From the IMG/VR virus record IMGVR_UViG_3300043446_000962, positions 1 through 20,472 of that record: a DNA stretch of 20,472 bases, one strand, 5' to 3'. Shown here one piece after another: positions 3,097 through 20,472 of this stretch (its first letter is position 1; each line of letters begins with the position of its first letter). The translations under genes were made by a program, and so were the position numbers. This DNA is from a virus. Under the pieces are notes generated by a model, which worked only from the letters and a program-made list of their open reading frames with translations, ran no database searches and was not told the DNA's origin.

Positions 3097-3104
3097 TATT
3101 TATC
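3097..3104 (-). promoter_or_regulatory. T4-like late promoter candidate for the gp13-like gene
   Basis: The minus strand reads GATAAATA, seven of eight bases of the T4 late -10 box TATAAATA. It ends 5 bases before the start codon at 3091, so a transcript would begin at or near the ATG and have essentially no leader. Confidence 0.5.
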
Positions 3105-3118: not shown

Positions 3119-4504
3119 ATGACTATGCCAAGACTCTCACTGTACCGCCCAGAAAAGGGCAATGATTACAAGTTCATCGATAAAACCATCTGGGAAATGT
3201 TCCAAGTTGGCGGCGTTGATGTGCTTATACACAAGTATTTAGGACCAGGTGCTTCTGTGCAAGGAGTCACCCCTAGTACTCCGGAATATACAACTCCGGA
3301 TCCTTTCCATATTCAGGACTTGCTATTTCTAGAAAATCGTGATAGAAAATACGAACCAGACATTTATAGATTGCGTGGTGTTTATAATATTCAGGATTTG
3401 GATTTCAATCTAAGTCAATTTGGATTATTTTTACAAAACGATACGATTTTTATAACTTTCCACATCAACGATACAGTGGAAAAACTAGGAAGAAAATTAA
3501 TTGCAGGCGATGTTATTGAGTTGCCACATTTAAAAGATGACTTCGCACTCAACGATTTACAATTTGCTATAAAAAGATTTTATGTAATTGAAGAAGTTAG
3601 TAGGGCTGCTGAGGGATTTTCAGTAACTTGGTATCCACACTTATATCGTGCTAAATGTAAACCAATGGTGGACAGCCAAGAATTTAAGGACATCCTTGAC
3701 GGATTAGCAGATGATACCGGAACCGATACCACAACAACATTACGTGATATTCTATCAACTTATGAAAAAGAAATGCAGATTACACAAGCAGTTCTTGATC
3801 AAGCAGAAGCCGATGTTCCTAGAAGTGGTTTTGATACCACTAGTTTCTATACTCTGCAAACAGACTCGCAAGGTTCAGCAATATTAGAAACTGTAGATTC
3901 GGAAGTACTAGATGCATCTGTTGAGACACAGGCCACAGACGAAGCTGGTAATTTATTATTTGACGATAACGGTGACCCAGTCTATGTTGGCTCAACTGCT
4001 AGTACCATGTTGTTGTCAGCAGCACAGAAAGGATATCGAGGTTACATTACAGAAGATGGAATTCCACAGAACGGTGCTCCGTTCACCGCGGGTATTGCAT
4101 TCCCAATGAATTCTGTAGAAGGTCAATTCTGTTTGAGAACAGACTATCTACCAAACAGATTATTTAGATTTAACGGCGCACGATGGGTCAAACAGGAAGA
4201 TAATATTCGTATGAGTATGAGCAACAAAGGAACTCATGACGGAAAAACTAATAAAGGTTTATGGGCTAACACCACAGTATACAGCAAAGATGATATTGTC
4301 AAATTTAATGGTTGGGAATATGTATCTAAGGTTAATAACAATACTGGAGTTATTCCATCTGCAGATGTTACTAAATGGCAACAGATTCGTCAGACACAGA
4401 AAACCAGCTTTATTAACAATAATAATACCAATGTTATTGACGGACACACTGTAAAAGAGAAACAGAGTCTTTCACAAGCATTACGACCAAAGGCAGACGA
4501 ATAA
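3119..4504 (+). CDS. gp14: Neck protein, gp14 type, with C-terminal carbohydrate-binding-like module
   Basis: A 461-residue protein whose N-terminal ~200 residues follow the pattern of T4 gp14 (256 residues): DLDFNLSQFGLFLQNDTIFI matches the gp14 stretch with FFSNFGMQVQDEVTLSI, and AGDVIELP followed by FYVIEEV matches EGDLIYFP followed by FEINWVEP. T4 gp14 joins gp13 at the neck. A mid-region is rich in D, T and S. Near the C-terminus, residues ~380-424 (GLWANTTVYSKDDIVKFNGW, then EY, then G-x-x-P and a final W) have the W/Y/GD/Y-x-G/G-x-x-P/W spacing of CBM5/12 chitin-binding-like modules. The start could instead be the ATG at 3125 (MPRLSLYRPEKG), which I think is the more likely true start. 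No Shine-Dalgarno is visible. The stop overlaps the next start as TAATG. Confidence 0.72.
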   Translation: MTMPRLSLYRPEKGNDYKFIDKTIWEMFQVGGVDVLIHKYLGPGASVQGVTPSTPEYTTPDPFHIQDLLFLENRDRKYEPDIYRLRGVYNIQDLDFNLSQFGLFLQNDTIFITFHINDTVEKLGRKLIAGDVIELPHLKDDFALNDLQFAIKRFYVIEEVSRAAEGFSVTWYPHLYRAKCKPMVDSQEFKDILDGLADDTGTDTTTTLRDILSTYEKEMQITQAVLDQAEADVPRSGFDTTSFYTLQTDSQGSAILETVDSEVLDASVETQATDEAGNLLFDDNGDPVYVGSTASTMLLSAAQKGYRGYITEDGIPQNGAPFTAGIAFPMNSVEGQFCLRTDYLPNRLFRFNGARWVKQEDNIRMSMSNKGTHDGKTNKGLWANTTVYSKDDIVKFNGWEYVSKVNNNTGVIPSADVTKWQQIRQTQKTSFINNNNTNVIDGHTVKEKQSLSQALRPKADE

Positions 4505-4641
4505 TGGAAAATCAAGATAAAAAACTAGAATATAAATGTGTTTGCGGTTGTGCAAGACATTGCGGACACAGTTGTCAAGACTGTGAAAATTGCCCCGATT
4601 GCGAATGCGAATTATGTCAGCAAGGTAAGGAATTTAATTAA
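4504..4641 (+). CDS. 45-residue cysteine-rich protein between gp14 and gp15
   Basis: A very small protein starting MENQDKKLEYKCVCGCARHC. It has ten cysteines (positions 12, 14, 16, 20, 24, 27, 30, 33, 35, 38) and two histidines (19, 22) in 45 residues, arranged as CxCxC and a run of CxxC. This favours zinc or other metal binding over disulfides in the cytoplasm, although that is inference. Its ATG overlaps the upstream stop (TAATG), and its own stop overlaps the gp15-type start in the same way, so translation is almost certainly coupled through all three genes. The double overlap and lack of frame disruption argue that it is real. I do not recognise a family; it could be a minor virion component or an assembly factor for the neck. 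Confidence 0.75.
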   Translation: MENQDKKLEYKCVCGCARHCGHSCQDCENCPDCECELCQQGKEFN

Positions 4642-6089
4642 TGGACTACTTTTACGACGGGCAAATAAGACGTTATGTAACACAGTTTATGCGTGTGTTC
4701 ATAGGTTTTAGATGGCAAGCGGGTGACGGAACACAGCAAGAAGTTCCGGTAACATACGGCGATATGACACGTATGGTTGCCAGCATCATTAAAGATAACA
4801 GTGAAAATAAATTAGCCACTGTACCTAAAATTGCCTGTTATGTCACTGGATTAGAAATAGATACCACAAGAACATCCGATGCATCATTTGTCAGCAAAGT
4901 GAATATTCGTGAAAGACGTTGGACCGATGCCAGTGGTCAAATTGAATATCAAAGCAATCAAGGTGGCGGGTATACTGTCGAAAGATTGATGCCTACTCCA
5001 TATAAACTTTCTATGAAAGCAGACTTATGGACGTCAAACACTGACCAAAAATTGCAGTTGTTAGAACAGATTTTAGTTTTATTCAATCCAAGTCTCGAAA
5101 TACAGACTACAGACAACTATATTGACTGGACTAGTTTAAGTGTACTCGATGTGAAGAATATCAGCTTCACATCAAGAACTATTCCTCAAGGTGCTGATTC
5201 AGAAATTGATATCTGCACAATAGAATTCGAAATGCCTATATGGATTACTCCGCCTGCAAAAGTTAAAAAATTGGGGATTGTTAGAACCATTATTAATAAT
5301 GTGTTTACCGAAGAAGGTGGCATTGTTAGCCTTGAAGAATTAGTTTACAATAGACGAAAAGGCTCACTTGACACTACCACAAATAGATTTAGAGTATTGT
5401 TGTTTAAGTCTAACAACGGAGAACCTTATGATTACGATGTAACTTTGGTTAATCCAGAAGCTGCGGTATTGGCATTAGGGCTAGATCAAAGATCCGTTAA
5501 GAACGGAGAACCAGTAGATTGGAATACTATATTAGATGTACAAGGCGGGTATAAGCCAGGAAATCAGATGTATTTCAAACAGGCATCGGGATATGAAATG
5601 ATAGGAACGTATGCGATCAATCCAGTTAATCCTGCAGCTCTTGTTGTTACATTTGATCAAGACACTATTCCACAGAATACACTAATTGACAGCACAATAC
5701 TTGGGGTTGATCCACGAGGAACCGTTGATGCAATCATAGATCCTTACAAATACAATCCAGTCGAAGTTTATGGTACACAAGGAAACATACCGCTAGGCAT
5801 AAGATTTTTAATGCTAGATGATGTTAATCCAAACAATGTCAACCAAGACGGGCCCGATGCATGGAAAAATATAGATTTAACAGATCCATGGATCAAAATG
5901 AATTCAATTATTGAGTGGAGTGGAGCATATTGGCGCACAGTTTGGGATCCGGACACCGGCGATAATCCAACGTATATTCAAAATTTAAGAACTGGTATCA
6001 AGTATCGATGGGATGGTGACCAATGGCTCAAAGCCTTTGAAGGCGAGTATGCACCAGGATTATGGAATTTCCTTCCTCCTGAATTATAA
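4641..6089 (+). CDS. gp15: Tail terminator / sheath stabiliser, gp15 type, with long C-terminal extension
   Basis: The first ~230 residues match T4 gp15 (272 residues), the ring that caps the tail tube and sheath and joins the tail to the neck. MDYFYDGQIRRYVTQFMRVF corresponds to the YFYNSSFRRYATLMGDLF of T4, EVPVTYGDMTRMVASI to RVPITYASKEHFMMKL, and PTPYKLSMKADLWTSNTDQK plus the following LLEQIL to PSPIKMIYELSIFTRYEDD and IVEQILPYF; FEMPIWITPPAKV corresponds to FEVNGWMYPPVDD. At 482 residues it carries an extension of roughly 210-250 residues absent from T4, ending in a W-rich part (WSGAYWRTVWDP, then NLRTGIKYRWDGDQW). The ATG is coupled to the upstream stop (TAATG). Co-location with the gp14-type gene fits the neck-tail junction. 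Confidence 0.85.
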   Translation: MDYFYDGQIRRYVTQFMRVFIGFRWQAGDGTQQEVPVTYGDMTRMVASIIKDNSENKLATVPKIACYVTGLEIDTTRTSDASFVSKVNIRERRWTDASGQIEYQSNQGGGYTVERLMPTPYKLSMKADLWTSNTDQKLQLLEQILVLFNPSLEIQTTDNYIDWTSLSVLDVKNISFTSRTIPQGADSEIDICTIEFEMPIWITPPAKVKKLGIVRTIINNVFTEEGGIVSLEELVYNRRKGSLDTTTNRFRVLLFKSNNGEPYDYDVTLVNPEAAVLALGLDQRSVKNGEPVDWNTILDVQGGYKPGNQMYFKQASGYEMIGTYAINPVNPAALVVTFDQDTIPQNTLIDSTILGVDPRGTVDAIIDPYKYNPVEVYGTQGNIPLGIRFLMLDDVNPNNVNQDGPDAWKNIDLTDPWIKMNSIIEWSGAYWRTVWDPDTGDNPTYIQNLRTGIKYRWDGDQWLKAFEGEYAPGLWNFLPPEL

Positions 6090-13795: not shown

Positions 13796-13803
13796 TATTT
13801 ATG
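13796..13803 (-). promoter_or_regulatory. T4-like late promoter candidate before the 166-residue virion gene
   Basis: The minus strand reads GCATAAATAC across 13804-13795; CATAAATA matches TATAAATA at seven of eight bases. About 50 bases of leader with a GGAG site follow before the ATG at 13746. This is the clearest late-type promoter in the window. Confidence 0.6.
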
Positions 13804-14264: not shown

Positions 14265-14290
14265 AAAAAAGCCCCTTTCGGGGCTTTTTT
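14265..14290 (-). terminator. Intrinsic terminator after the carbamoyltransferase gene (bidirectional form)
   Basis: A five-base G/C stem (GCCCC / GGGGC, loop TTTC on the plus strand) extended by six A:T pairs, with a run of six T on each strand. On the minus strand the stem follows directly on the carbamoyltransferase stop codon, whose last two bases lie in its A/T arm. Confidence 0.9.
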
Positions 14291-16118
14291 AGTTTGCTAC
14301 CTTGATTAATTTACCGTATTCGGGCAAATATAGGTATTCAATTTCTGACTGGCTCAGTGTCCATAGAGCATCGTCTAGGGTTTCTACCAGAGGTTCTCCA
14401 CCTAAATTAAAGCTGGTATTGAATAAAATAGGCACGCCTGTTTCTTCTTTAAATGCTTTAATCAAATCATAGTAGTGTTTATTTTGTTCAGCGTTAACTG
14501 TTTGGATTCTACAGGTGTGATCTTCGTGAATAATGCTAGGAATTTTTTCTTCAATTCCTGGTTGGCAGTTAACAGCATACATCATAAATGGACTGTTTTT
14601 CATTCCGCGGAGATCAAACCATTCATGTACATCTTCTTCTAAGATACTTCCTGCGAAAGGACGGAAATACTCACGACGTTTAACTTGATTTACAAAGTCT
14701 TTACCGTCCGGGAAAGTTGGATCGAATAATACAGAACGATTACCTAAAGCACGTGGACCGTTTTCTGAACGTCCTTGGAATACTGTGACAATATTCTTTT
14801 CACGCAAGAGTTTAACAACATCTTTGTGTGTGGCATCAGTAATTTCTCCACCAACTGCTGAAACTTTATTTTCAATTTCTTCGTTAGTGTAGCAGTATGC
14901 TGGTCCTAGATACAGTGATTCGCCTGGACGGATTGTTGTATCTTCTTGCATACCATGCCAGAAAATAAGAGCAGCACCAATTGCTGTACCAGCATCATTA
15001 GAAATTGGTTCAACATAAATTTCAATGCCGTCGTCTTTTAATCCATCGAGATAGAAATAGTTAGCAACACAGTTCAAACCATATCCGCCGCTGATAACTA
15101 CACGTTTCTTGCCAGAAATTTCTGATGCTTTACGAATAAGTTTTAACACCTGTTCTTGTGTTTGTGTTTGGCAAGCATAAGCCAAGTCACGTCTATTCTG
15201 CATCAATGTTACATCACTGTCTTGATCTTCTGGCATTTCGTCGAGGTAATCAAAGAGATTCATGTTAACTGTTGATGACATAGGATATCTTGGTACCATT
15301 AGATTTCTATTAGACAACGGAATCTTAGATGTCTCGTCAAACAGTTTAGGAATTGCATCGTTGGGTTTACCATACGGAAATAATCCCATAGTCTTGCCAG
15401 CTTCGATTGCACTGAACCCGCAATATTCAGTAACACCTTCGTAGACTTTAACAATACCTGCGTGGTCGCTGACATAAGCAACGTGTGTTTCGCCTTCTTC
15501 GCCTAGTGGACTAGAGTCAAATTCTGGAATGTATGAGCCTGCGATTGGATCTCTGGCTCCGTAGTGCTTGTACAAGGTTTTAAAATTTGCTGGATAGTTA
15601 CAATCTACAATAGATTCAACTTCCCATAACCAAATACCTTGATTGTTGTACTGCATTGGATAAAATGTACCAGCACCGTCTACGATTAGAGATACTGCAT
15701 CTTCCCATCCAGAACGATAAAATGCACAGGCTGCGTGTAATTTGTGATGCATAAAGCTCAAGTCAACAACCTGCGGATGTCTGTGTAGGTCTGGAACTTT
15801 ACGTTCAATTAATCCTAGCTTACGAGCAAGTCCTGTGTAGACATCGTCACCGGTATAGTCAATTTTACCAGCAGTTTCTTGTAGATTCTGAGTGTGTGCA
15901 ATTACTAGATAATCTAGTTTATCTGTGTACTCTAAAATCTTAACCATAGAAGCAAATGGACCACCGTCATACTTTTGACGGCTTAGACGTTCTTCTTCAA
16001 TACTAAAAACTATTTCTCCGTCTTTAAGCAAACAGATACCTGAGTTATGACCTCGGGCGATTGCTGCAATCCATACTGGCTTATGTTGCTTGAGTGTTGC
16101 TATTGATTTAACTGTCAT
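14289..16118 (-). CDS. Carbamoyltransferase, NodU/CmcH (TobZ) family
   Basis: A 609-residue enzyme with the full family layout. Such enzymes make carbamoyl-adenylate from carbamoyl phosphate and ATP and transfer the carbamoyl group to a hydroxyl, often of a sugar. N-terminal Kae1-like domain: GHNSGICL from residue 23, EEERLSRQKYD, the metal site HHKLH (H124, H125, H128) and VDGAG (D147), SGGYGLN (343-349) and EPISNDAGTAIG with N374/D375. C-terminal YrdC-like domain: GRSENGPRALGNRS (449-462), KRREYFRPFA (480-489) and NTSFN (567-571). No key segment is missing. The gene overlaps the upstream glycosyltransferase-like gene by 11 bases and ends in a strong terminator. The acceptor is unknown; given the neighbour, a sugar on a virion or cell-surface glycan is the best guess. 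A role in hypermodified DNA is also conceivable. Confidence 0.9.
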   Translation of the reverse strand: MTVKSIATLKQHKPVWIAAIARGHNSGICLLKDGEIVFSIEEERLSRQKYDGGPFASMVKILEYTDKLDYLVIAHTQNLQETAGKIDYTGDDVYTGLARKLGLIERKVPDLHRHPQVVDLSFMHHKLHAACAFYRSGWEDAVSLIVDGAGTFYPMQYNNQGIWLWEVESIVDCNYPANFKTLYKHYGARDPIAGSYIPEFDSSPLGEEGETHVAYVSDHAGIVKVYEGVTEYCGFSAIEAGKTMGLFPYGKPNDAIPKLFDETSKIPLSNRNLMVPRYPMSSTVNMNLFDYLDEMPEDQDSDVTLMQNRRDLAYACQTQTQEQVLKLIRKASEISGKKRVVISGGYGLNCVANYFYLDGLKDDGIEIYVEPISNDAGTAIGAALIFWHGMQEDTTIRPGESLYLGPAYCYTNEEIENKVSAVGGEITDATHKDVVKLLREKNIVTVFQGRSENGPRALGNRSVLFDPTFPDGKDFVNQVKRREYFRPFAGSILEEDVHEWFDLRGMKNSPFMMYAVNCQPGIEEKIPSIIHEDHTCRIQTVNAEQNKHYYDLIKAFKEETGVPILFNTSFNLGGEPLVETLDDALWTLSQSEIEYLYLPEYGKLIKVAN

Positions 16119-17052
16119 CTTTTTTTCCTAAAACGTGATTGACCACTAAGGTTGTAATATCATCAGTCATTGCCATGATATTTTCATTTGCTCTTGAAAC
16201 TCTTTCATCTGGGAAAATACGAATAGGATCGTATTCTCTATGTATTTCTCCCATATCTAATATATCAAAACTTGGTTCATCTGGAAATGATACGTTAATT
16301 GGGAATGTCGATCCTGTAACTACCACAGCTTTTTGACCCATCGCATAGGCAAGATGTTGTCCTAAACTGTCACAGCCTAAGAAATGATCTGCATACTTGA
16401 TAACTGCGGCCCAAAGTCGGAAGTTTGCATTTTCTGGCATTGCAACTTCGTCTTTGAGTTTGGCATCAGTGAAGTCTACTTTGAATTCACTCATCATTAT
16501 AATGCCGTAATCTTCTTTTTGTAATTTTTTAACAATACTTTTTACATCTTTGAGCTCAAAGCTTCTTGCTGTTTTGTCAATTAGTGTTTCGTCGATGTAT
16601 TCAATGCCACGACCAAATGGTTGAAATACTATGATTTTTTCTTTTTTTAATTTTTTCTTAACTTCAGAAACTACTTGTCTGCCACTTAACAGCTCGTCTT
16701 TGCTGAGTCTAAGTGTAGGTTTTGGTAAACTTCTAATGCCTTTGTTATTAATTTGGATGTCAAATGCTTGAGCAATAGAGCATTGTTGATTATAGTATTC
16801 CCAAATTCTATACGGCTCTGTGCTTACTATTTCTCTTTCTTTGAGATAATCTTTAAAGAGGTTCTTATGCCATACATCGTAGGTATGGTCATCTAGTGTG
16901 GGATGGCCTTTAAACACATCTGTTCCGCCTTCGCACACGATGATAAAATCTTTGTCGCCTGATTCTTCCTGATATTTTTCTAGTGCTGGAATAGCACTAA
17001 TCATGCGCCCTGCGCCGCCGTTGATAAAAAATGCTTTGGATCTATTAGTCAA
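16108..17052 (-). CDS. GT9-like (heptosyltransferase-type) glycosyltransferase
   Basis: A 314-residue GT-B-type protein. INGGAGRMISAIPALEKY (from about residue 10) is the N-terminal loop typical of ADP-heptose:LPS heptosyltransferases; IIVFQPFGRG starts the C-terminal Rossmann half; and HFLGCDSLGQHLAYAMGQKA plus the following VVVTGS corresponds to the GT9 signature (D-S/T-G-x-x-H-L-A-x-A-x-G). The start is a TTG at 17050-17052 supported by a GGAG Shine-Dalgarno six bases upstream; no ATG is available before the essential loop. It overlaps the carbamoyltransferase by 11 bases, so the two are probably made together and act on the same glycan. Members of this fold can be enzymatically divergent, so donor and acceptor cannot be named. 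Confidence 0.75.
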   Translation of the reverse strand: MTNRSKAFFINGGAGRMISAIPALEKYQEESGDKDFIIVCEGGTDVFKGHPTLDDHTYDVWHKNLFKDYLKEREIVSTEPYRIWEYYNQQCSIAQAFDIQINNKGIRSLPKPTLRLSKDELLSGRQVVSEVKKKLKKEKIIVFQPFGRGIEYIDETLIDKTARSFELKDVKSIVKKLQKEDYGIIMMSEFKVDFTDAKLKDEVAMPENANFRLWAAVIKYADHFLGCDSLGQHLAYAMGQKAVVVTGSTFPINVSFPDEPSFDILDMGEIHREYDPIRIFPDERVSRANENIMAMTDDITTLVVNHVLGKKDDS

Positions 17053-17136: not shown

Positions 17137-17784
17137 TTATAATGCCAAAACAGGGAATGGAATTTTCCAGTGATCGACGTTTTTATATTTTTCTTCAAGT
17201 GTTACAATACCATCAAGATGTGCTTGGATTTTATCAAGTTGTTCTTTTGTATATGTACGAGTATCACCTGCTAACAATGCTGTGTAGGTTTCAATTTGGC
17301 TGTTTACGCTAGCCCAAAAGTCTTTTTTACTTACAGCATGGCTTCTGTATCTTGGACGAGTCCAAGTGTCGGTTTCCTTGTTATAGTGAAGATCGTTAAC
17401 ATAGAATGGTTGTTCTACAGCTGAACCTTCATCGTCATAGTGATAGGTCCAAGTCGAACCGTCTGGAAGGGTTTCTGTATAATCATCGAATGGCGCATGT
17501 GTGTAGTAGCCTGTTACATGAGCAGCTTCCCATGTATGTTCCATAGCATCGAGAACTACCTGATAATGCCCTTCACCATCTAAATTGTGTTGAGCTATCT
17601 TCATTACGTCGATGCGTTCGAGATCTTCTTCTTCCTCGTCGATTGCATATACTAGTCCAGTTTCTGCTACAATTCTTAATAGTAGATATCTTGGACCGTC
17701 GTAGGTGCATTCAACCGTGATGTTCTTTTTGGTTGTTGTCTTATATGGTTCATCCGGTAATACCGTTGTGAATACTTTTTTCAT
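17137..17784 (-). CDS. Unknown 215-residue protein after the cysteine-rich array
   Basis: I do not recognise the family. The protein starts MKKVFTTVLPDEPYKTTTKK, has a strongly acidic run (DEEEEDLE, residues 49-56), a W/Y-rich middle (GSTWTYHYDDEG, 109-120) and a helical C-terminal part (about 155-205) ending HWKIPFPVLAL. There is no signal peptide, membrane segment or catalytic motif that I can see and no cysteine enrichment: it has only one cysteine (C26). The ATG has a GGAG Shine-Dalgarno seven bases upstream and lies 12 bases after the last cysteine-rich gene, so it belongs to the same operon, which ends in the terminator at 17063-17117. By position it could be an assembly chaperone for those proteins, as Tfa or gp38-like proteins are for fibres, but nothing in its sequence proves this. 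Confidence 0.6.
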   Translation of the reverse strand: MKKVFTTVLPDEPYKTTTKKNITVECTYDGPRYLLLRIVAETGLVYAIDEEEEDLERIDVMKIAQHNLDGEGHYQVVLDAMEHTWEAAHVTGYYTHAPFDDYTETLPDGSTWTYHYDDEGSAVEQPFYVNDLHYNKETDTWTRPRYRSHAVSKKDFWASVNSQIETYTALLAGDTRTYTKEQLDKIQAHLDGIVTLEEKYKNVDHWKIPFPVLAL

Positions 17785-17796
17785 TTAATAACTCCG

Positions 17797-18795
17797 TTAT
17801 CTATCAATGTATGTAATTCTAATTAGTCCGTGTCCACCGCGCCATGCGTGATCTCGAACGTCGCCGCAAGGATGAGCTGGATGAGCTCCAGTGCCTGTAG
17901 GCCAAAATGGTTGACATCCTTGTACATCATAGCATCCACATGCTTTTGATGACATCCAGCAGGTGTTAAATGGTACACCGCGAGCTGGAGAACGATTCAT
18001 TCCGTTCAATGTATGGATGAACTGATGATGTCCCATACCAGACCATTGTGACCAACCGTTATCTGATTCTGTACCGTAGGTTACAACACCGCCATCGCAG
18101 GCAAATAGACCTGGCGGAATAGCAATGTGATATGTTGTTGAACATGGACAGTTACCATAACATGTAAAGAATGTAGCACAGCTAAAGCCGCCTCGTTTAT
18201 TAATATCTCCGCCATAGGCTTCAGCACAGCAGCTACCAGTACCTGAACCATAGTTACAAACAATACCGCAACCACCACCCATATTTGAGTATACACAGCC
18301 GCAGAAACTACCAGCTGTGAAACAGCAGAATAATGGTCCTGCGCCTGTGTTACAGAATGTAGTGCCTCCACGCCCGCCTTGTGCGCAGATACAACCACTG
18401 GTTGTTGCGCCTGTATATTGATTTCTACCGTTCCAGCATAAACATGTTGCTTCTGAACAGCCACGGAAACATAAATCGTTTGAGTTGTTGCATGAGCGGC
18501 CCACATAACCGCAGATAATACAACCTGCAACTACACAGATACATTTACGAGCCCATGCTCCTGGATTACCTGGAATACCGCCACCACAGCAGCACATCTT
18601 AGCGCCAGAGCCGCCTGCACCCCATGCATCTATAATTACTTTACCAGTGCCAGGGGCAACCCAGCAAATGCCTGCTAAGAAGTTGTTGTATTCAGTACCC
18701 GAACTGTAAGCCCAAACTTTTCCTTTTTCGAGTTGGACTTCATCCCAATCGATTTGATCTAGTTTTGCTTCTACTAATGCTTTTAAGGTTGCCAT
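17797..18795 (-). CDS. Glycine/cysteine-rich fibre-like protein, third tandem copy
   Basis: A 332-residue protein. After an N-terminal helix it reads KVIIDAWGAGGSGAKMCCCG (a start typical of glycine-rich phage fibre domains), then a cysteine-dense region with CGYVGRSCNN and CFRGCSEATCLCW, then CICAQGGRGG, YGGDIN, and a C-terminal GDVRDHAWRGGHGLIRITY. It has 34 cysteines, about 10 percent of the protein, many as CxC, CC or CCC. The start chosen is the ATG at 18793-18795, two bases after the upstream stop, because it aligns with the start of the previous copy (MATLKALVE vs MAKLTELLG); a longer reading from 18828 exists but would overlap the previous gene. No signal peptide. It is probably a virion-surface or receptor-contact protein, but the family is unnamed to me. 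Confidence 0.7.
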   Translation of the reverse strand: MATLKALVEAKLDQIDWDEVQLEKGKVWAYSSGTEYNNFLAGICWVAPGTGKVIIDAWGAGGSGAKMCCCGGGIPGNPGAWARKCICVVAGCIICGYVGRSCNNSNDLCFRGCSEATCLCWNGRNQYTGATTSGCICAQGGRGGTTFCNTGAGPLFCCFTAGSFCGCVYSNMGGGCGIVCNYGSGTGSCCAEAYGGDINKRGGFSCATFFTCYGNCPCSTTYHIAIPPGLFACDGGVVTYGTESDNGWSQWSGMGHHQFIHTLNGMNRSPARGVPFNTCWMSSKACGCYDVQGCQPFWPTGTGAHPAHPCGDVRDHAWRGGHGLIRITYIDR

Positions 18796-18796
18796 A

Positions 18797-19990
18797 TTAG
18801 TACGTATTGCCTCCGTCTGTTGGGACATATTTAATTCTAACCATTCCCATACCGCCTCTCATGCCGTGATCTCGAACGTTACCGCATGGATTTGGGCCAA
18901 CTCCAGGAACACCGTATGGTACAAATTGGTGACAGCCTTGCATGTTGTAACATCCGCAGCTTCTTTGTCCGCTCCAGCATGTGTTGTAATAGGTATGCGA
19001 TGGTTGTCTTGACAGCATAACCAATGTGTTTAATAAGTTTGGTGTGCCAGTTCCTGCCCATGATGCATTTTCTGTATCGCCGTCTGTCATGAACGAAATC
19101 ACCGCTCCGTCTTCAGCAAACACACCAGCAGCAGTTGGAATGTGATGCATTGTTTGACATGGACATGATGACAAGCAGCCTAAGAAGTCTACGCAGCTTA
19201 TAGCGCCGCAGCAGTTAACATCTCCGCCCCAAGCACAAGCAACGTTGTTACCTGATTGACACCAGTTACATACACGTCCGCAAGCAGAGTTACCAGTATC
19301 GCACATGTTGTGTCCAGTACCTACACGCTGTCCGCAGAAATAACCAGTGATAAAGCATGAGAATGGAGATTTCGTATCCATACAATAACTCATACCACCA
19401 CGTCCGCCTTGTGCGCACATACATCCGTTGCCTTGTCCAGCGTTATAGCACAAGCCGCCGCCTGCACAGCAGGACGAAATTCTTGTACCAAAATAACCTT
19501 CTGCTCGTTTAGGTCCTAGGTTGAAACAGAAACCATCTCTTTCATTGCCCCAACCCCACGGATTATTTCCTCTCCATGACTGTTGAGCGCAAGGATCTTG
19601 TCCGTCTGCATATAAGGGATTTGGTGAACAACCAAACCAACATACACAGGTGGCTTCTGAACAACCACGGAAACACAAGTCGTCAGCATTGTTACATGAA
19701 CGACCTACGTAACCACAGATATAGTTACCTGGGCATACGCATATACATTTTTTCACATACGCAGGTGCATTACCGTCAGTACCGTGTCCACAGCAGCACA
19801 TTTCTGCTGTTGATCCTGCAGAACCCCAAGCTTCAATAATTACTTTACCGCAACCTTGAGCTCTCCAGCAAAAGCCGTTACAAAATGCTGAGTACATATT
19901 ACCGTCTGAGTAAACCCAGATACGGCCTTTTTCTAACATGTCTTTTTGAGCTTGTTCTCTATTGCCTAATAATTCAGTTAACTTTGCCAT
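18797..19990 (-). CDS. Glycine/cysteine-rich fibre-like protein, second tandem copy
   Basis: A 397-residue paralogue of the following gene with 42 cysteines. It shares KVIIEAWGSAGSTAEMCCCG, CGYVGRSCNNADDLCFRGCS, EATCVCW, CAQGGRGG, WGGDVN and a C-terminal GNVRDHGMRGGMGMVRIKY. It carries about 60 extra residues between the CSEATC part and CAQGGRGG, rich in W, N and G (PWGWGNERDGFC, SCCAGGGLCYNAG), which could be a variable receptor-contact insert. The start is the ATG at 19988-19990, one base after the upstream stop; a reading from 20026 exists but would overlap the preceding gene. A GGAGG Shine-Dalgarno for this gene lies within the last codons of the preceding gene. Function is not recognised. 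Confidence 0.7.
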   Translation of the reverse strand: MAKLTELLGNREQAQKDMLEKGRIWVYSDGNMYSAFCNGFCWRAQGCGKVIIEAWGSAGSTAEMCCCGHGTDGNAPAYVKKCICVCPGNYICGYVGRSCNNADDLCFRGCSEATCVCWFGCSPNPLYADGQDPCAQQSWRGNNPWGWGNERDGFCFNLGPKRAEGYFGTRISSCCAGGGLCYNAGQGNGCMCAQGGRGGMSYCMDTKSPFSCFITGYFCGQRVGTGHNMCDTGNSACGRVCNWCQSGNNVACAWGGDVNCCGAISCVDFLGCLSSCPCQTMHHIPTAAGVFAEDGAVISFMTDGDTENASWAGTGTPNLLNTLVMLSRQPSHTYYNTCWSGQRSCGCYNMQGCHQFVPYGVPGVGPNPCGNVRDHGMRGGMGMVRIKYVPTDGGNTY

Positions 19991-19991
19991 G

Positions 19992-20472
19992 TTAGTATGA
20001 GCCTCCCAATTTTCCTGCGCGAGCATTTTGGTTTTCTAGTGTACCAGAACCTCTATAAGTTAATCTAATAGCACCGTGCCCACCTCTACGTCCATGATCT
20101 CTAACGTCTGGACATGGCCAAGGTTGGTTTCCTGGTACTCCGTATGGGAATGCTGGCATACATCCGGATGATTCATAACATCCGCACATCTGATTACCGT
20201 TATAACAAATCGTAAATGGAGCACCGCCTGTTGGCCATTTTGAAGCAAAGTTCAAAGTATGCGCCTGTGCGTGATATCCGTTACCACTCCATTGAGTGTG
20301 TTCGTTGTCGTCGTCTTGTGTAAAGATAATGTTAGCGCCACATTCAGCAAATATCATTGGTGATGTTGCAACAATAGTATCTGTTTGGCATGGGCAAAGT
20401 GCGTTACCTGTTCCTTTAAATATCACACATGAAATACAGCCGCAGCAACCAATGTCGCCACCGTATCCGCAG
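19992..20472 (-). CDS. Glycine/cysteine-rich fibre-like protein, first tandem copy (5' end beyond window)
   Basis: The frame is open to the right edge, so the N-terminal part is missing; a GTG within the frame at 20424-20426 is an internal codon. The visible 159 residues begin CGYGGDIGCCGCISC and continue through CPCQTDTIVATSPMIFAECG to a C-terminal PDVRDHGRRGGHGAIRLTY followed by a short tail. These align with the C-terminal halves of the two downstream copies (YGGDIN, CPC, DVRDH-x-x-RGG, R(L/I)xY). It is the first visible gene of the array, and its 3' end encodes the Shine-Dalgarno of the next gene. The gene may be longer or shorter than its paralogues. Confidence 0.7.
   Translation of the reverse strand, partial: CGYGGDIGCCGCISCVIFKGTGNALCPCQTDTIVATSPMIFAECGANIIFTQDDDNEHTQWSGNGYHAQAHTLNFASKWPTGGAPFTICYNGNQMCGCYESSGCMPAFPYGVPGNQPWPCPDVRDHGRRGGHGAIRLTYRGSGTLENQNARAGKLGGSY

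Follow-up and report, generated by a model that had tools for sequence, protein, structure and literature searches.

The array genes and their setting

The window, by which we mean the whole 20,472-nucleotide stretch of viral DNA analysed here (positions 1 to 20,472 of IMG/VR record IMGVR_UViG_3300043446_000962), ends in three adjacent genes for cysteine- and glycine-rich paralogues, as an earlier note on this DNA had recognised; all three are on the minus strand and arranged in the order P3, P2, P1. The first gene, P3 (19992..20472, minus strand), is represented by its C-terminal 159 amino acids only, with 13 cysteines, because its open reading frame runs off the edge of the window; the full-length orthologue in L002 has 341 amino acids and 35 cysteines, and the full-length orthologues in L002-L026 range from 339 to 344 amino acids. 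The middle gene, P2 (18797..19990, minus strand), encodes a paralogue of 397 amino acids with 42 cysteines and an insert of 58 residues, and the third, P1 (17797..18795, minus strand), an adhesin-like cysteine- and glycine-rich protein of 332 amino acids with 34 cysteines. The lengths and cysteine counts of P1 and P2 are based on the family start M-A-x-L, with which the figures given previously (34 in 332; 42 in 397) agree exactly; P1 is 343 amino acids long if the upstream ATG at 18828 is taken as its start. One base separates each stop codon of the array from the next start, an arrangement typical of coupled translation.

The motif framework originally described for all three paralogues holds in part. 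A YGGD or WGGD motif and a VRDH-RGG-G-R-Y end are present in P1, P2 and P3, whereas W-G-x-G-S, CGYVGRSCNN, CFRGCSEATC and CAQGGRGG are visible in P1 and P2 only. The P2 insert (19445..19618, minus strand), which occupies residues 137-194 of the 409-amino-acid open reading frame, had been put forward as a variable site of about 60 residues, and its behaviour bears this out: it is 52% identical to the nearest orthologue, against 83% for the rest of P2, and forms both the entropy peak within the family and the fastest-evolving part of the protein. Such hypervariability is what would be expected of a receptor or tip loop, and the insert is a candidate receptor-contact loop.

Cysteine makes up 8-10% and glycine 15-17% of the residues in the array paralogues. 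Eleven other genes examined in the window contain 0.59% cysteine, so the content of the array cannot be put down to chance (binomial P of the excess over this background 3e-30 for P1, 1e-37 for P2 and 2e-11 for P3). A profile-guided scan found encoded relatives in about 257 IMG/VR stretches, with relatives at every depth, and among 110 representatives at 80% identity 22 cysteine columns are conserved in 85% or more of the sequences, with C80, C81, C148, C159, C191 and C305 essentially never lost. Two of these, C80 and C81, do not vary in any representative; they belong to the CCC motif of P1 (C79-C81; 18586..18594, minus strand), which occurs, as such or as a variant, also in cyanophage homologues. 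Across 87 independent close pairs cysteine sites changed in 2.7% of cases, glycine sites in 10.6% and all non-cysteine sites in 14.4%, so that cysteines are about five times slower to change than other sites. By this measure few features of the proteins are under selection as strong as that on the cysteines; the rate makes it unlikely that they are tolerated as small packing residues, given the faster change of glycine, and it answers the concern, raised with the original observation, that their positions might not be conserved in homologues. Outside the core, cysteines are gained or lost singly, mostly in exchange with polar residues, yet a protein's total remains close to 30-35 (about 35-43 where a middle copy carries an insert, as P2 does).

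Relationship to known adhesins

The earlier note could name no family for these proteins, but families do exist: phrog_4205, phrog_35878 and the Pfam family Gly_rich_2 (PF21722), and isolated cyanophages carry such arrays. A direct tblastn search of window proteins against phage records found nothing, and a PDB sequence search with the array proteins gave nothing useful. The route to named phages ran through the phrog_8954 neighbour to Synechococcus and Prochlorococcus phages, and from there through gene order and profiles. Tandem cysteine- and glycine-rich hypothetical proteins of phrog_4205/phrog_35878 are found in the Kyanoviridae S-CAM1 (three, SXBG_00224-00226), S-SSM7 (three, SSSM7_114-116) and P-SSM2 (two, PSSM2_304 and 306), placed between a tail fibre and a gene set shared with the window family, phrog_8954 included; in S-CAM1 the array lies just before phrog_9740, the phrog_8954 protein and a carbamoyltransferase. 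Profile-profile comparison (hhalign) establishes the homology of the two groups (99.5%, E 2.9e-23), and both have CCC, or a close variant, and CAxGG. They differ in that identity is about 25%, many cysteine positions beyond CCC and CAxGG do not coincide, and the cyanophages have two or three copies. P1 matches phrog_4205 over essentially its full length (residues 51-341, E 5.6e-11), and P2 weakly and in its N-terminal part only (E 0.01).

P1-P3 have no Pfam match, including to Gly_rich_2. Direct matches to that family were obtained for five of 94 family members (best 1.9e-6), and one S-CAM1 homologue scores 4.3e-10, or 40.4 bits against a cut-off of 24.3. On these scores the window proteins are distant relatives of Gly_rich_2 and not members. 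They resemble it in a W-x-x-P...x-x-x-W-G-A-G-G start and a GG-x-G-x-(V/I)-(R/K)-I-x-Y end, and differ in that P1 and P2 do not reach the Pfam cut-off and cysteine stands in for much of the glycine.

The AF2 model of P1, built with 94 homologues (pLDDT 84.4, pTM 0.82), contains a single N-terminal helix (15-29). Its best match among solved folds (Foldseek) is the Pam3 tail fibre 7ypx (E 1.1e-5, probability 1.00), followed by 7yfw and then the Bxb1 tail tip 9d93 and the glycine-rich domains of ALK/LTK; among viral predicted structures (BFVD) the best matches are S-CAM3 (5e-14), P-SSM2 and Syn9 Gp38 (2.4e-7). Foldseek recovers the TNF-like plus glycine-rich lattice fold of the Pam3 gp24 type, with modest TM-scores. 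Since the superposition on the Pam3 fibre is loose (TM 0.39 by query and 0.52 by target, rmsd 7.8), the likeness claimed extends to shared architecture and not to detailed structure. Three gp24 chains make up the Pam3 fibre, which has TNF-like and glycine-rich domains for receptor binding; its glycine loops follow the length of the fibre, conserved close to the base but varying at the tip, where the receptor is proposed to bind (PMC9608196). Common to gp24 (7ypx, 7yfw) and the array proteins are an N-terminal helix, a beta-sandwich, glycine-rich loops and an adjoining partner gene. In contrast, gp24 is a one-gene homotrimer, cysteine goes unmentioned in the text of the Pam3 paper, and the partner in the window folds unlike gp25.

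A second comparison is offered by the glycine-rich tip proteins Gp38 of Syn9, the predicted structure of which matches P1, and gp38 of Salmonella phage S16. The S16 adhesin is a single chain that caps the gp37 trimer through a three-helix attachment domain and carries a tryptophan tip on that domain, and S16 has no array of three. The original reading of the array proteins as glycine-rich phage adhesins gains from both the Pam3 fold match and the homology to Gly_rich_2 through relatives, and we regard their adhesin identity as well supported by homology and fold resemblance. They are probably tail-fibre tips that grip host cells. The literature searched yielded no relevant papers on cysteine-rich cyanophage or tail-fibre proteins, and the array apparently encodes a variant type of glycine-rich phage adhesin not described before. 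The solved adhesins compared here (S16 gp38, Pam3 gp24) are each the product of one gene, whereas a widespread T4-like lineage has in this array three old paralogues with an extreme and strongly selected cysteine content. These findings suggest a role for phrog_4205 and phrog_35878, and less surely for phrog_9740, and would account for several neighbouring 'hypothetical proteins' of cyanophages that have been isolated and can be cultured, which offers a way to test the idea.

Copy number and gene neighbourhood

The lineage of the window is T4-like without being closely cyanophage. In the contig of the relative L006 the capsid protein shares 65-71% identity with its counterparts in Phosso, Vibrio phage 2.275, PA5oct and GAP32, and none of 13 long contigs, possibly fragmentary, matched the psbA family. 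The sole GTDB match is a 15-kb contig of this phage family (L105, PAOW01000006.1) that had been placed in a Euryarchaeota MAG, probably through mis-binning of a virus or contamination.

Exactly three copies are present in 16 of 17 long contigs (85-364 kb); the remaining one has two full or partial copies in an array that runs off the contig end. A rapidly changing copy number is thereby rejected. One clade has a 2+1 split, with a two-copy array and the third copy about 23 kb off among other structural genes; such moved copies (L145, L147 and L151, near 10000, and the contigs of L057, L059, L052 and L074) have no adjoining phrog_9740. In the tree, copies group by position in the array, with 7 changes against 40.5 in shuffles. 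The tree indicates that the three copies are old positional lineages inherited together. Recent tandem duplication or gene conversion is rejected, as copies cluster by position and not by genome; the exception is the divergent L086/L087 phage, whose three copies come together in a quick tree. This fixed set of three, which had not been foreseen, is a stronger clue than those noted earlier.

The gene order of the family runs from a giant structural protein through two proteins of about 106-110 amino acids and the three cysteine-rich genes to phrog_9740, and S-CAM1 shows a matching order. In the window the phrog_9740-type gene (17137..17784, minus strand; 215 amino acids) lies immediately 3' of the array, and a phrog_9740 protein is directly downstream in all 81 loci where the next gene can be seen, rising to 121 loci in an enlarged set where the 12 exceptions are solo copies; some loci share a contig. 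Usually there follow a phrog_8954 protein and a NodU-type carbamoyltransferase. L086 and L087 have the three copies and phrog_9740, with neither of the latter two genes nearby, and as L086 keeps only these four genes, they form the minimal module.

The constant position of phrog_9740 makes its product a candidate dedicated assembly partner or chaperone. Its AF2 model is of very high confidence (pLDDT 96), but nothing in the PDB matches its fold at E<=0.001 (best E 1.1), and 46 homologues include no match to a tail-fibre-assembly Pfam family. A chaperone of the Pam3 gp25 or Tfa type agrees with neither the fold nor the Pfam result, so the suggested role derives from gene position; judging from the model, the protein may have a new fold and represent a fibre chaperone of a new kind.

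Next after the array region of the window, at 14289-17052, come the phrog_8954 protein, weakly glycosyltransferase-9-like, and the NodU-type carbamoyltransferase. In cyanophage relatives heptose-synthesis genes are added at this site. The two proteins might modify the fibre tip or a host surface sugar.

A putative fibre tip and its cysteines

Homology, fold resemblance, cysteine conservation, copy number and gene order are all observed, and with these in hand we think it fairly probable that the array encodes three paralogous, cysteine-reinforced subunits of a tail-fibre tip, most likely combined in one heterotrimer, with the phrog_9740 protein as probable partner. Each subunit would have a short N-terminal helix, a beta-sandwich and long glycine-rich loops that extend and pack as in Pam3 gp24. 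Assembly would take place at the end of a fibre that the giant upstream protein forms, the phrog_9740 protein probably serving as dedicated partner, and the host surface would be bound via variable loops, the P2 insert included. A heterotrimer would comprise one of each copy, where Pam3 uses three identical chains; the retention of exactly three old copies that do not stand in for one another makes it the most likely arrangement. Were the three to form one tip, this would be a heterotrimeric receptor-binding device. A more specific version, in which the heterotrimeric tip is obligate, disulfides or metal lock its glycine lattice once the cell has lysed, and three receptor surfaces vary independently, is one that we hold tentatively, as something short of an even prospect.

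Three genes need not mean a trimer, given that S16 gp38 caps the gp37 trimer as a single chain. The paralogues could instead be three separate adhesins, each forming its own homotrimer, as Pam3 gp24 does, or a gp38-like single-chain cap, and together conferring several receptor specificities; the two copies of P-SSM2, and the clade in which one copy has moved beside other structural genes, fit such independence. Adhesin repertoires usually vary in number. The number here is fixed at three in nearly all long contigs and the copies keep an ancient positional identity, and we find separate adhesins possible but doubtful. That the proteins are intracellular or secreted factors lying by chance within the late structural region is very improbable. 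No virion proteomics covering any member was found, the main text of the S-SM1 proteome paper names no such protein, searches with array members gave no match in S-SM1, S-PM2 or Syn9, and all annotated homologues seen are labelled 'hypothetical', but fold and family are those of fibre and tail-tip proteins and the array lies directly between giant structural and tail genes in every clade.

The cysteines raise a direct and testable question, namely what disulfides or bound metal do in virions that are put together in a reducing cytoplasm. About 20 near-invariant cysteines would form a cross-linking framework, with disulfides that set after lysis and replace part of the packing given by uninterrupted glycine runs in ordinary relatives. 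Such post-lysis disulfides are our first choice, with roughly an even chance of being correct. Not all cysteines are likely to lie in obligate intrachain disulfides, because odd totals are as common as even ones (50:53) and variable cysteines change singly in 28 of the 44 pairs having any change; both observations leave room for disulfides within the invariant core or linking one subunit to another. Co-loss gives weak hints of pairing, confounded by shared ancestry, between 55 and 227 (four loss patterns) and between 120 and 124 (five).

The same near-equal parity, the production of the proteins in a reducing cytoplasm and the dense CCC, C-x-C and CxxxC spacing of the near-invariant core would also suit clusters (CCC, CxC, CGCYxxxGC) that bind zinc, iron or copper; the tip would then be a metalloprotein, perhaps as a means of stability. 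We consider this rather unlikely, as the place of a lost cysteine is taken by S, T, Q, R, N, Y and others and not mainly by His or Asp, the cysteines are distributed over the whole sequence, and Pfam and PDB sequence searches found no metal-site homologue. Thiol exchange with the host surface and unpaired packing share whatever likelihood disulfides and metal leave.

Elsewhere in the window, a virion structural protein (phrog_11591; 3119-4504, plus strand) matches tail-fibre families in its C-terminal part (about 365-449), which is perhaps a sugar-binding module. It is followed by a gp15-like tail sheath stabiliser of 482 amino acids (4641-6089, plus strand), with the gp15 Pfam domain at residues 3-230 and then a long C-terminal extension. 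The T4 late-promoter-like sequence ATAAATA occurs only twice in the window, at 3097-3103 and 13796-13802 (-), where 6.5 matches are expected by chance, and both lie just upstream of minus-strand genes.
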